NCBI GenBank assembly: GCA_022825665.1
Contig: JAJDWI010000004.1
Coordinates: 16,248 to 80,247 of the forward strand
Direction of reading: 5' to 3'
Source: Candidatus Poribacteria bacterium
GTDB taxonomy: Bacteria; Poribacteria; WGA-4E; WGA-3G
Length of the DNA stretch: 64,000 nucleotides
Part shown: positions 3,150 through 54,497 of the stretch, in pieces
Numbering within the stretch: the first letter of the stretch is position 1
How the letters are laid out: every line of letters begins with the position of its first letter
Made by a program: the position numbers and the translations under genes
The notes under the pieces: model-generated
What the model saw: the letters and a program-made list of their open reading frames with translations, nothing else
What the model was told of the DNA's origin: nothing
The model's database searches: none

Positions 3150-3304
3150 GATTTTGACATTTAATTGTTCCTAAGAATTTATGTTGGGTTTCTTAGGTTT
3201 GTTTGAAACAAGATTTGTAAGATTAGTCCTTCACGTTTTTTTAGAATTAATCTGAAAGCAATCCTAATTTAGAAATAATTTTGATTTAAATTTTGCCAAT
3301 TAAC

Positions 3305-3333
3305 TTGAAAAAAAATTATTAAAATGCTACAAT
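3305..3333 (+). promoter_or_regulatory. Putative sigma70 promoter upstream of dnaA
   Basis: TTGAAA-N17-TACAAT. Confidence 0.5.
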
Positions 3334-3395
3334 TTATGTCCGTGTTATTGGTAGATTTTTTAGCAATACTTTAAAACATTTTAATAATCTGACTC

Positions 3396-4769
3396 GTGCA
3401 ATTGGCACCTTATTTTGTAAGGAACATTCCGATGCAATATACCCCCGATTCCCTCTGGTTTGAAATGCTTGAGACGCTTGGTGAAACTGCCCGTAACGAT
3501 ATTTATCTATGCCAAGCCATCCCACGTACACTTAACGATGAGGCTTTCATCATTGCAGTTCCTTCCGATTATACACAAGACGAAATTGAAAATAGATTTC
3601 TTAGCGATATCAATAATGTATTAGCAAAGCGAATAAGTTCGGACTGTACGTTGGAAATTTCTGTAGATCCTTCGCTTGCCGTAGTTCCTGAGTTTGAACA
3701 AACTGAACCTAATCCCGAAGATAATACTCCCCAAACAACAGGATTGAATCCGAACTATATTTTTGACAATTTTGTTGTTGGTAGGAGCAATAGGATATGT
3801 CACGCGACTGCCTACGCTGCATCTCAAGACCTTGGCGGAGAGTACAATCCACTTTTTATATATGGAGGTGTAGGACTCGGAAAAACACATCTCCTTCATG
3901 CTATCGGTAATTGTGTTCAAGAGGCAGACCCAAAAAGGAAAGTACTTTACGTTACATCTGAAACGTTTATGAATGAATATATTGATTCAATAATGAACCG
4001 GACTTCTTCCCAAGGATTTCGCTCAAAATACCGAACAACCGATCTTCTACTAATTGATGACATTCAATTTTTACAAAGAAAAGAAGGCACACAAGAGGAA
4101 TTCTTTAATACGTTCAACGAATTATATAAAAGGTCTAATCAAATTGTGATGACGAGTGACAGATCTCCGGATATGCTTGAGAACTTAGAAGAAAGACTCA
4201 GTTCACGTTTTGAATGGGGAATGGTGGCAGAAATTGATAAACCGAATTATGAACTTCGACTTTCAATACTGCGACAGAAATGTGAAGACCAAGGTTTTTC
4301 TAATATTCCAAGTGAAGTGCTTAACTATATTGCTGAGATAGTGACAGCAAACATACGTCAATTAGAGGGGACACTGGTTACTCTGAAAGCACGTGCCTCC
4401 CTCCTTGATGAAGAATTAACTATTGACCTTGCCCGTAGCGTCTTAAACGATACACCTACGACTATAACAGGTGGATCACGAAAAAAATCGGTTACACCAG
4501 AAGTTATACAAGAACTTGTTGCTACACATTTCCAACTAAACAATGGCGATTTAACATCGGCAAAACGGACAAAAGTCCTTGTTTATCCTCGTCAAATTGC
4601 AATGTATCTTTGTAGGGAACATACGCAACTTTCTCTAACAGATATTGCTGAAGTTTTCAATAGACAAAACCATAGAACCATTACATACGCTTGTGAACAG
4701 ATTGAAAAACTACTTGAAGAGGATGAAACAAAAAAGATTATACAACACCTAACTGCCGAATTGGCGTAA
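3396..4769 (+). CDS. dnaA: Chromosomal replication initiator protein DnaA
   Basis: GGVGLGKTHLLHAIGN Walker A, LLIDDIQFLQ Walker B, C-terminal domain IV (VYPRQIAMYLCREHTQLSLTDIAEVF). Confidence 0.97.
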   Translation: MQLAPYFVRNIPMQYTPDSLWFEMLETLGETARNDIYLCQAIPRTLNDEAFIIAVPSDYTQDEIENRFLSDINNVLAKRISSDCTLEISVDPSLAVVPEFEQTEPNPEDNTPQTTGLNPNYIFDNFVVGRSNRICHATAYAASQDLGGEYNPLFIYGGVGLGKTHLLHAIGNCVQEADPKRKVLYVTSETFMNEYIDSIMNRTSSQGFRSKYRTTDLLLIDDIQFLQRKEGTQEEFFNTFNELYKRSNQIVMTSDRSPDMLENLEERLSSRFEWGMVAEIDKPNYELRLSILRQKCEDQGFSNIPSEVLNYIAEIVTANIRQLEGTLVTLKARASLLDEELTIDLARSVLNDTPTTITGGSRKKSVTPEVIQELVATHFQLNNGDLTSAKRTKVLVYPRQIAMYLCREHTQLSLTDIAEVFNRQNHRTITYACEQIEKLLEEDETKKIIQHLTAELA

Positions 4770-4787
4770 AATTCAGGTAGAAAAACC

Positions 4788-4955
4788 TTATCTACACACG
4801 ATTCATGCGAGTTATTATCAATAATTGATAATAACTTGATAATAACTTGATAATAACTTCCAATCTTTGCTAATAAATTGCTAATAACTTTTCTATTAAT
4901 TTGTCGCGTTGATAATATGATAATAACTCCATAAGTTATTATCAAGTTATTATCA
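4788..4955. other. Candidate oriC / DnaA-binding iteron array
   Basis: Three head-to-tail TTGATAATAAC units (4825-4857), inverted GTTATTATCAA at 4811-4821 and 4935-4945, GTTATTATCA 4946-4955, TGATAATAAC 4918-4927; a one-mismatch DnaA box TTATCTACA at 4788-4796; sits between dnaA and recF. Confidence 0.65.
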
Positions 4956-5156
4956 GCCACCAAACCATTCCCAAACAAGGTTAAAAGCAGTTATTAACAT
5001 ATTATCACACCCTACTACTACTACTAAGGTACAATTTAAATTTTTATTTGGTACTTAATAATATAATAAGAGTATGTGAATACTTATTAAATATATAAGA
5101 ATTTATAGCAAACAACCTATAAAATATTATGGCAGAAAGAACATGGAAAGGTTCAG

Positions 5157-17895: not shown

Positions 17896-17994
17896 AGACC
17901 AACTCACCTGTAAACCTTGACTGGCACAAATTGTAAGATAGGTTTGAAGGGCATTAATTAACAATCCCAGCATTTATGCTTGGGTCAGAAAACC

Positions 17995-18023
17995 TTGACT
18001 TTTATAAGTTTTTATGATAGAAT
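17995..18023 (+). promoter_or_regulatory. sigma70-type promoter for structured RNA copy 1
   Basis: TTGACT (17995-18000)-N17-TAGAAT (18018-18023), 5 nt before P1 of the RNA. Confidence 0.75.
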
Positions 18024-18028
18024 ATATA

Positions 18029-18111
18029 CCAGCATCTTTGGATAGGATTTCTACCTCAACACTCACCTGTGTTGAGTCCTATCCCCAATCGTAGAAAATT
18101 GGTGGTGCTGG
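18029..18111 (+). ncRNA. Structured RNA, copy 1 (three-way junction with bulge-loop pseudoknot)
   Basis: P1 CCAGCATC/GGTGCTGG; P2a GGATAGGA/TCCTATCC; bulge TTTCTAC; P2b CTCAACAC/GTGTTGAG; P3 CCAAT/ATTGG with loop C-GTAGAAA; pseudoknot TTTCTAC x GTAGAAA. Supported by covariation with the copy at 54385-54463. Confidence 0.88.
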
Positions 18112-18290
18112 TGCGAAATCACTCAAAACATTAGAATGTCGTCGTGGATAATTTTATATACGTTGTTAGGACAACGCCCCTACTACATTCGCTAATTAAT
18201 TACCGTAGGATATACGGAAAGTTACGCCTGTGGAGTCCGAATAAGACCTCTTATGGAGGCACGAGAGACGGAAGCAGGAATCACACAGGA

Positions 18291-18320
18291 GAGTTGTGTG
18301 CTAAAAGAAGCACACGGCTC
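18291..18320 (+). other. 12-bp hairpin in the leader downstream of RNA copy 1
   Basis: GAGTTGTGTGCT-AAAAGA-AGCACACGGCTC, all 12 positions pair allowing two G-U. Confidence 0.5.
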
Positions 18321-18370
18321 TATGCTGTCGTGAGTATCACAAAGTTTTTACAAGGAGGCATATCACTATT

Positions 18371-19138
18371 ATGCGTTTTTACAGTTTTCTTTTAATTTTT
18401 ATTCTCCTCATCTCATTTGCTGGATGTTTTGGAGATGGAGAGATTAAGATTGACACTCCTCCATCTTTTAACGAAGCAAAACGAATTGTAGTAACCAATT
18501 TTCTTGCTGAAGGGGAAAATGCACAAGCACTTGGTAAAAGAGTTAGCGTTAATTTAGCAACCCGCCTAAAACTAATCTTGAAAGATAATGAATGGATTTC
18601 TGACCAAGCGCAAAAAGTGCAACCGGTAACTGAAAAAATTAATGAATTAGGATTAACTCTAAATGATATCTATACAGATCCAACATTAGCAGCAAAAGTT
18701 GGAGAAGCCCTTAATGCTAATATTATTATCACTGGCATGGTAGAAAATCCTAAATTAGATCGTAATGATTACAATGAACACCTCATGAAACAAGGCAGAC
18801 AAACTGGAATATCAGGCACGTCTACCTTTATCCGTACGCGCCAATCGGCAGTAGGTAAAGTACGTATTAAGGCTATAGATGTCGCTACAGGTGAAATCCT
18901 CTATAATAATAAGATTACCTCGTATCTTAAGTACTGGTATGCTTACCAAACACAGCAGAGCGGACAAATCATTTTCAAAGAGAATATTGAGATGCTCGCG
19001 GATTTAGGAAACCATTTGCCAGTTCGAATTACATATATGCTTTACCCAACTGGACTCAAAAAAGAACCTGAAGAAAAGGTATTGCTAAAACCAGAGATTA
19101 AGCTTATAGGAACTGGTGGAGAAGTTAAGTTCAACTAA
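18371..19138 (+). CDS. Putative lipoprotein (CsgG/LPP20-like, penicillin-binding-protein-activator-like fold)
   Basis: MRFYSFLLIFILLISFAGCFGDG lipobox; RIVVTNFLAEGENAQALGKRVSVNLATRL...ANIIITGMV...ATGEILYNNKI. Confidence 0.6.
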   Translation: MRFYSFLLIFILLISFAGCFGDGEIKIDTPPSFNEAKRIVVTNFLAEGENAQALGKRVSVNLATRLKLILKDNEWISDQAQKVQPVTEKINELGLTLNDIYTDPTLAAKVGEALNANIIITGMVENPKLDRNDYNEHLMKQGRQTGISGTSTFIRTRQSAVGKVRIKAIDVATGEILYNNKITSYLKYWYAYQTQQSGQIIFKENIEMLADLGNHLPVRITYMLYPTGLKKEPEEKVLLKPEIKLIGTGGEVKFN

Positions 19139-43811: not shown

Positions 43812-43883
43812 TGCCGGTGCGGAGAGTCGAACTCCGGACAGCACGATTATGAGTCGTGTGCTCTACCACTGAGCTACACCGGC
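43812..43883 (-). tRNA. tRNA with CAU anticodon (Met elongator or Ile2)
   Basis: GCCGGTGTAGCTCAGTGGTAGAGCACACGACTCATAATCGTGCTGTCCGGAGTTCGACTCTCCGCACCGGCA folds as a cloverleaf; anticodon loop CTCATAA. Confidence 0.93.
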
Positions 43884-52009: not shown

Positions 52010-52841
52010 TTACTTATACATTTTTATGATTTCATCAATTGACGTTTGGCTATTGTATTCCCATTTACGCTTTATGTTCGCGAAATCTCTTTCAATAGGA
52101 TTGAGTTCAGGCGAATACGGAGGTAAAAAAAGTAAACTCGCACCACAGGCAGCAATCAATCTCTTTGTCTGTGGACTTTTATGAAAAGACGCATTATCCA
52201 ATATGACAACATGGGATGCGTTAAGTAGCGGACACAGCACATTCTCAAGCCACGCATTGAAAGCAAGTGTATCACAAGCACCTCCAAAAAGCATAGGTGC
52301 TGTAAAACGCCCCTCAATTTGTGCAGCAATGAGCGTCGTGCTTCTATACCGATTGCTTGAGATTTTATCCGCAACGCAAACCCCTCTCGGCGCATAAGCA
52401 TACTGCCGAGCACATTCTATGGTAAAACCGCTTTCATCAACAAAAACAGGTATTTTTCCGTTTTGAAGTGCCATCTCAAGTTGAACCTTATAGGTATCTT
52501 GTTTGACAGTGCATTGTTCCTTATAGGTAAACGTCTTTTTTTCGCGTGTATCCGATCTTCTTCAGACCATACCAGATACAATGCTGCGATACGCAAAAGT
52601 GTGCAGCGCGTTCCTTCAAGGTGCTGTCTGGAAACGCTTTGACATGTGCTGTGAGTGCTTCTGGATCAAGCCGATAAGGATTACGAGGTCCCGGTTTTTC
52701 GTATGTAAAAGGATCGGCTGCGTCTAACCAGTTATAGATACAACGGCGTGAAACACCAAATCTACGGGAAGCTTCTGCTTTACTACCACCAGCTGCTATG
52801 AAATCAAGAACGCGTTTTCGTAAATCTTGTGAATATCTCAT
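52010..52841 (-). mobile_element. IS630-family transposase, two overlapping-frame ORFs (orfA 52521-52841, orfB from 52474 or earlier to 52010)
   Basis: orfA: RYSQDLRKRVLDFIAAGGSKAEASRRFGVSRRCIYNWL HTH; orfB: VFVDESGFT...VVILDNASFHKSPQ...FLPPYSPELNPIERDFANIKRK DDE domain; frames joined by loss of one A at A7 (52536-52542). Confidence 0.88.
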
Positions 52842-53302: not shown

Positions 53303-54301
53303 TCAAGTACTCTTTTGTTCTGCGATTATAGACTTATTGCTTATTCCACTTGAAAGTTTCTCTCTAATCTCTGGTGCCAAGTTTTCAATCCTGAGAGGAT
53401 ACATAGACGGAAGACTAATGCTGTGCCCGCCATATTCATTGAAAGCCATCTCTATCATTTTATCTACCATGTGGACAACATAGAAATCATTTGAGTCAAC
53501 GAGCCTGAATACATGGCAATCGAGCAATTGCACAATTTGGTTAATCCAATCAGGAACTTGGCTATAGAACTGCTCATAGTCATTATCTTTATCTTCAACA
53601 AATGGGTTTTGAGGATGCAAAATGTTACTACATTTTTTGTAAACATCAACACACATATCGCGCGTCATGAATCCTTCTTCTATGAACTCAATTTTGCTTT
53701 CGATGTTCTTTTCATAACCGTGTTGAAACTGTTTAATGGGTTTCGGATAGAAGTCTGCATTCCGTTTCTCGATATATTCAAATATCTGTTGCAATTTCCA
53801 GAATGTCTTAATCCTCTCTTCTTGCTCCTTGTAGAGTGGTTCGTTTGCGACCAGTGACGCGAGCGCGATCGACTCTATAATTCTTCGGATTTGTAAAGCA
53901 ACCGTTTCTATCTTAACAGGGTAAGGTATCAAAGATTCCCAAAGGCTCAGATCATCCTTATCCTTGTTATAGCTGTCGTTGCGTTCTATATGCATGACAA
54001 TCTCGGTCCTCCATTTTATCTCAGACATTACCCGAATATAACGATCTACGTCTGGTTGCATTAAATTCACTTCTTCATTGTATTGAGTTGTGAATTCAAT
54101 AACATCATCTATCCCAGAGCAGATATGATCACTTTTTGTATCTTCCTTTAGATTGTGAATTAACACAATGAAACTGCCATCCGATTTAGGGGCTAAACTG
54201 AATTCTCCGATGGTAGTTTTCCAAATCCAAATCGTCTCGCTCTCAAAATTGGGAGCGAAGCCAAGTATTTCAGTAACTTTATCCTTCGATTTAGTACTCA
54301 T
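53303..54301 (-). CDS. Conserved hypothetical protein downstream of structured RNA copy 2 (possible HEPN-like helical region)
   Basis: 332 aa from ATG 54301; helical; DVYKKCSNILHPQNPF segment; family not firmly recognised. Confidence 0.6.
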   Translation of the reverse strand: MSTKSKDKVTEILGFAPNFESETIWIWKTTIGEFSLAPKSDGSFIVLIHNLKEDTKSDHICSGIDDVIEFTTQYNEEVNLMQPDVDRYIRVMSEIKWRTEIVMHIERNDSYNKDKDDLSLWESLIPYPVKIETVALQIRRIIESIALASLVANEPLYKEQEERIKTFWKLQQIFEYIEKRNADFYPKPIKQFQHGYEKNIESKIEFIEEGFMTRDMCVDVYKKCSNILHPQNPFVEDKDNDYEQFYSQVPDWINQIVQLLDCHVFRLVDSNDFYVVHMVDKMIEMAFNEYGGHSISLPSMYPLRIENLAPEIREKLSSGISNKSIIAEQKST

Positions 54302-54384
54302 CTGACTTGTTTCCTTATAGGGCAAGGGTTTGCGTTTCCTACAAGATGATTATATAAATATCTATGGAATAAGTAGAATATCTA

Positions 54385-54463
54385 CATCTGCTCTACTCAA
54401 TGCAATATGAGCGGATAGGACATTAGCAAGGGTGCTAATGATTGCATTCCTATCCAGCAGATA
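54385..54463 (-). ncRNA. Structured RNA, copy 2 (three-way junction with bulge-loop pseudoknot)
   Basis: Minus strand: P1 TATCTGCT/AGCAGATG; P2a GGATAGGA/TCCTATCC; bulge ATGCAAT; P2b CATTAGCA/TGCTAATG; P3 GCTCA/TGAGT with loop T-ATTGCAT; pseudoknot ATGCAAT x ATTGCAT. Confidence 0.88.
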
Positions 54464-54468
54464 CAAGT

Positions 54469-54497
54469 AGAATAGGGCATTTATTGAAAAAAGTCAA
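54469..54497 (-). promoter_or_regulatory. sigma70-type promoter for structured RNA copy 2
   Basis: Minus strand TTGACT (54497-54492)-N17-TATTCT (54474-54469), 5 nt before P1. Confidence 0.7.

Follow-up and report, generated by a model that had tools for sequence, protein, structure and literature searches.

Cas12 descends from TnpB, and to our knowledge little has been charted of how TnpB expression is itself controlled. The closest described system is that of IS200, whose tnpA transcript folds at its 5' end into a stem-loop; this structure conceals the ribosome-binding site and gives rise to a stable RNA (PMC12594629). A 2023 study suggested that TnpB, like TnpA, may be under mRNA-level control (PMC10278001). 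The 5' leader of IS200 tnpA (the 5'tnpA RNA of Salmonella and E. coli) resembles the leader analyzed here in being the structured 5' end of the mRNA of an IS200/IS605-superfamily transposon. However, the IS200 leader lies on tnpA and has been described as a stem-loop with an antisense RNA, art200, whereas the leader of the Poribacteria, a sponge-associated phylum, lies on tnpB, has a three-way junction, a bulge-loop pseudoknot and a tandem alternative P1 strand, and is also found as tnpB-less mini-elements.

The omegaRNA (reRNA) of TnpB is encoded by the same elements, and the mini-elements keep the 3' end where it lies. The omegaRNA is the 3' end of the transcript plus a guide, whereas the Poribacteria leader is the guide-free 5' end, before the start codon. 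The HEARO RNA (RF02033) of IscB elements is likewise a structured RNA upstream of a nuclease gene in an IS200/IS605-like element, but the leader itself has no Rfam match. Translational riboswitches with alternative pairing resemble the leader in having a domain with a pseudoknot and a strand able to choose between two partners, one of which lies beside the start codon. Unlike them, the leader has no evident ligand-binding core, almost all of its conserved bases lie in helices, and the genes that follow its class B copies (see below) have no common pathway. A stand-alone riboswitch was considered and rejected, because the downstream genes share nothing (GmrSD, DNA methylase, RtcB, CD-NTase, PD-(D/E)XK and others).

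A search of Rfam release 15 (4227 families) gave no match to the leader above the gathering threshold and none at permissive thresholds, in agreement with the first-pass annotation, which had recognized no standard class. The suspicion raised there that the RNA might be the Poribacteria-1 motif found no support, nothing of that name appearing even at E<=5 among 4227 models that may not include the motif. HEARO was rejected as well, since its single line scored 14.9 bits on the reverse strand against a cut-off of 83 and the genes are TnpB; the mini-elements matched neither HEARO nor a group I intron. No description of this leader family was recognized in open-access full text on TnpB and Poribacteria and on tnpB leader RNAs. 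As an RNA family the leader is new; in kind it resembles the leader of IS200 tnpA.

Architecture and covariation of the fold

The stretch of DNA analyzed (64,000 nucleotides of contig JAJDWI010000004.1 of a Candidatus Poribacteria bacterium; hereafter the window) holds two copies of the leader. Its sole Rfam match is a tRNA gene on the minus strand (43812-43883). The leader consists, in order, of P1, P2a, a 7-nt bulge, P2b and P3; the P3 loop is complementary to the bulge, and P1 encloses P2 and P3. Copy 1 occupies 18029-18111 of the plus strand, with P1 at 18029-18036/18104-18111, P2a at 18040-18047/18077-18084, the bulge at 18048-18054, P2b at 18055-18062/18069-18076, P3 at 18085-18089/18098-18102 and the pseudoknot strand in the P3 loop at 18091-18097. 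The sense strand of copy 2 (54385-54463) is the minus strand, with P1 at 54456-54462/54386-54392, P2a at 54448-54455/54413-54420, the bulge at 54441-54447, P2b at 54433-54440/54421-54428, P3 at 54408-54411/54396-54399 and the pseudoknot strand at 54400-54406. Every arm drawn in the first-pass annotation is present in both copies where it was placed; the helix lengths, which had been called the same, agree only approximately, with 7 bp in P1 and 4-5 bp in P3 of copy 2. A descriptor of the whole architecture scored 51 for copy 1 and 52 for copy 2, against a next best of 39 on both strands of the window, and its loose form matched 3 of 1200 dinucleotide shuffles.

Further homologues with compensatory changes, whose absence had been named as evidence against a selected fold, were found in number. 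The 73 distinct homologues were aligned by R1, a covariance model built from 12 sequences and lacking the pseudoknot. Standard pairs fill 91.1% of the pair cells, compared with 36.6-41.2% when one strand is slid, and the pseudoknot, although absent from R1, is 88.5% paired with two-sided changes at 7/7 pairs. P2a, though identical in the two window copies, covaries across the family (GGATAGGA, GGACAGGA, GGTTAGGA, GGGTGAGA, GGGAAGCA and others). By the evidence of this covariation, the predicted bulge-loop pseudoknot fold is proven to be a selected RNA structure, as had been proposed from the two copies.

Another 16 sequences, all tnpB leaders, served to build a further model, R2, from which the pseudoknot was left out. 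Forty of its matches were fetched blind to the pseudoknot, from the top of the ranking, so that the counts describe the best-matching leaders. In all 40 the pseudoknot pairs at 7/7 positions (exactly Watson-Crick in 37), and they contain 22 distinct pseudoknot 7-mers; with loops swapped between leaders, the complement occurred in 1/1498. In 17 pairs of copies whose ORFs are at least 88% identical, the 7-mer diverges by 25% and P2b by 24%; P2a (1.5%), the ORF (5%) and the upstream flank (14.5%) all diverge less. Positive selection on the 7-mer is not claimed, because a few pairs dominate the divergence and some are probably recombinant.

A second type of tnpB leader was observed in L018, L154 and L190-L193 (G009 tnpB, 370 aa). 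It has a short P2 with a 7-nt apical loop, TCGTTAG, that is the exact complement of the next hairpin loop, CTAACGA. This P2/P3 loop-loop kiss beats 60/60 shuffles in L018/L154 and is weak in other lineages.

Promoters, tnpB and the classes of copies

A sigma-70 promoter precedes nearly every copy that was read (TTGAC, about 17 nt, then a TATAAT-like box, often with an extended -10) and was found in 36/40 sampled R2 leaders. The first P1 base lies about 7 positions past the -10 box, or within about 2 bases of there, as in copy 1. In that copy the -35 box TTGACT (17995-18000, plus strand) is followed by a 17-nt spacer and the -10 box TAGAAT (18018-18023), which places the predicted +1 at about 18028-18030, that is, at P1; homologues have the same promoter at the same distance. 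Copy 2 has TTGACT at 54492-54497 and TATTCT at 54469-54474 on the minus strand, the first P1 base being the seventh base downstream. Judging from the promoter, transcription units of IS200/IS605-type elements in Poribacteria are predicted to begin with this structure.

In complete elements of the same genomes, tnpB lies directly 3' of the structure. The descriptor finds the full structure in 27/43 Poribacteria tnpB loci having enough upstream sequence, and a frame of >300 aa opens exactly at the predicted ATG in 28 of the 34 sampled R2 leaders with enough sequence. The distance from leader to tnpB start codon is nearly fixed in intact elements, and an obvious Shine-Dalgarno sequence is absent from most leaders. 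Four of four diverse downstream proteins carry the Pfam OrfB_IS605/TnpB domains (PF07282/PF01385), and the downstream TnpB proteins belong to several lineages, with 28-75% identity to the first. From its sequence context, then, the architecture is best described as a 5' leader that belongs to tnpB in elements of the IS200/IS605 type, persists in derivatives lacking tnpB and is present in hundreds of copies. Because it belongs to a mobile element so abundant, it is not the stand-alone class of noncoding RNA that the first-pass annotation had envisaged; that reading had the fold, the pseudoknot and the absence from Rfam right, and missed the tnpB context, the start codon and the additional P1 strand (P1'') of the tnpB versions.

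Matches to R1 (E<=0.1) occur in 40/86 genomes of the phylum, and outside the order there were none. R2 matches 49/86 phylum genomes; of the 48 candidates scored for each, as many as 47 in one genome are matches, and the total over the 49 is at least 661 leaders. Exact GGATAGGA-TCCTATCC hairpins number 11 in the source genome (G000) and 13 in the congeneric G009. Several contigs break inside mini-elements (G000 C48, C60, C79, C124 and C170; G002 C32 and C51), with matches about 60-430 bases from the contig ends, and copy numbers in the draft genomes are therefore underestimates. The TnpB relatives of archaea, cyanobacteria, Firmicutes and Prevotella gave no descriptor match above background (best 39), in a comparison that is not exhaustive, since at several of these tnpB loci the true start lies upstream of the scanned region. 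On this evidence the leader appears to be confined to Poribacteria.

Copy 1 is not followed by tnpB, but by a tnpB-type 3' end. Its left end carries an IS200/IS605-type hairpin with one bulged T (CCCAGCA-TTTA-TGCT-T-GGG; 17966-17984, plus strand) and matches that of the tnpB element L194 with 81.8% identity over 77 nt. The 3' end of the element is TnpB 3'-UTR/right-end (omegaRNA-type) sequence (18224-18344, plus strand), including a hairpin GAAGCACACGGCTCTATGCTGTCGTGAGTATCAC at about 18308-18340; it shares 79.9% identity with the L194 3' end (134 nt) and 92.6% with that of a tnpB in L125 (122 nt). By this homology, copy 1 is a tnpB-less mini-element in which the leader is fused to a TnpB-type 3' end. 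The neighboring gene (18371-19138, plus strand; 255 aa) lies outside the element, has a lipoprotein-like start, is unrelated to TnpB and has no Pfam match. At the copy 2 locus neither tnpB nor a left or right end was found, and the gene to its 3' side (53303-54325, minus strand; up to 340 aa) has no Pfam match. Copy 2 is a free-standing promoter-leader, upstream of an unrelated gene of no recognized family. An N-terminal fragment of an IS630-type transposase (PF01710) lies at 52521-52841 on the minus strand.

Many copies (class A) belong to short elements bounded by two hairpins, a left-end one of the IS200/IS605 type about 80-100 nt ahead of the structure and a right-end one about 200-340 nt beyond it; imperfect flanking hairpins (CTTTAG-type) occur in most mini-elements, in copy 1 by homology and not in copy 2. 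The remainder (class B) have neither end, and many lie 30-250 nt upstream of unrelated genes. Judged by eye, the G000 and G009 copies start directly after TTAT or TTAC, which are candidates for a short, fixed insertion target. The region of about 340 nt between leader and right end in the mini-elements of these two genomes (L017 5498-5890 and homologues) looks highly structured and is conserved between the genomes; it has no Rfam match and may be a TnpB guide-RNA scaffold.

At one locus (L034 of G006, 3282-5065, minus strand) a leader copy lies 190 nt 5' of a CBASS-like pair, in which a SMODS-associated 4TM effector comes after a CD-NTase (SMODS). Several species of genus g9 have a copy at one and the same locus, between the same flanking genes (L087, L088, L091, L094, L095, L099 and L126), preceding a gene of about 368 aa that is ParB-like by eye and has no Pfam match, which suggests that the promoter-leader has been domesticated there.

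Alternative pairing of P1

In the tnpB leaders the 3' strand of P1 (P1') is followed almost immediately by a tandem copy of itself, P1''. Examples are GTATCAAGTT ... GACTTGATAC-TTGATAGTCC-ATG and AGTATCCGTT ... GACGGATA-ACGGATATACC-ATG. The end of P1'' is mostly 3-6 nt upstream of the ATG (22 leaders evaluated), and in L140 and L205 the ATG itself is inside P1''. A second, non-overlapping P1 partner beats shuffles (p<=0.05) in 60/97 leaders. Of 19 distinct P1 5' strands, 17 reach a pairing score of at least 5.5 with the P1'' that belongs to them, compared with 14% when strands are swapped; the slide control for P1:P1'' gave 98.3% vs 18-48%, and the same control on A6 agrees. Covariation thus shows that the P1 5' strand is able to pair with either P1' or P1''. 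Taken with the placement of P1'', it suggests that a switch with two registers gates the translation of TnpB. Copies 1 and 2 have at most a weak P1''.

Possible functions of the leader

The leader probably controls the amount of TnpB. The favored reading, given a probability of about 0.6, is that the 5' leader of tnpB elements, retained in mini-elements and promoter-leader relics, acts as a cis control of expression in which a switch between P1:P1' and P1:P1'' limits TnpB. A strong sigma-70 promoter would start the RNA at P1, and bulge-loop pairing would lock the compact P1:P1' form, so that the start codon stays accessible and the 5' end of the RNA is shielded. A slip to P1:P1'' would cover the ribosome-binding region and lower TnpB translation, and the element would thereby limit its own nuclease. 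We infer these ON and OFF assignments, and the protective role, from the pairing alternatives. Across the 22 tnpB leaders evaluated, the stability of P1:P1' usually equals or exceeds that of P1:P1'', so the OFF state would need a trigger. The mini-elements have lost tnpB and have their leader joined to the right end; they and the class B copies would reuse the promoter plus the stabilizing fold.

Because mini-elements and class B copies keep a compensated fold without tnpB, translation control cannot be the sole role of the leader. The GGATAGGA lineage, nearly always tnpB-less and still compensated, likely has some function independent of tnpB translation. A compact 5' end may protect the transcript, which would explain retention in mini-elements and promoter-leader relics. 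The same compensated, tnpB-less copies, together with a P1 that begins at or beside the predicted +1, are consistent with a simpler account, in which the fold is mainly a 5'-end stabilizer: a knot at +1 would block 5'-end-dependent decay of tnpB mRNA and mini-element RNA, and translation would not be regulated. This account does not explain why a tandem P1'' lies by the ATG and covaries with the 5' strand of P1, or why the start codon follows at a nearly constant distance, and it is considered rather doubtful, though the most credible of the alternatives.

The many free-standing copies with their own promoter, and a 7-mer that varies freely while remaining self-complementary, could also point to a trans-acting small RNA that the leader releases or that mini-elements produce, and whose specificity lies in the 7-mer. 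However, the complement is always in cis, a trans target was not found, and within one genome (G082) the 7-mers of mini-elements and tnpB leaders differ; such an RNA is judged improbable. Still less can be said for a DNA feature, that is, a single-stranded hairpin for the TnpA transposase. Members of the IS200/IS605 family do transpose as single-stranded DNA and have hairpins for recognition, but the elements here have separate hairpins of the usual kind at their left and right ends, outside the structure, which is itself kept in copies without ends; the promoter and start-codon spacings are moreover features of an RNA. This last explanation has very little chance of being correct.

An extension of the cis-control reading is judged unlikely. 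The leader could be a self-keyed transposon RNA switch, with a 7-nt lock and key that change as a pair in each element lineage on a near-invariant frame, a two-register P1 that opens or covers the start codon, and keys that prevent cross-regulation. If this were true, the dosage of an RNA-guided nuclease would be set separately for each element family within one genome. 

The leader provides a small, pseudoknotted scaffold with a pairing segment that is exchangeable in nature. With a large, covariation-proven RNA family before tnpB in hundreds of elements, the question of how TnpB expression is controlled becomes testable.
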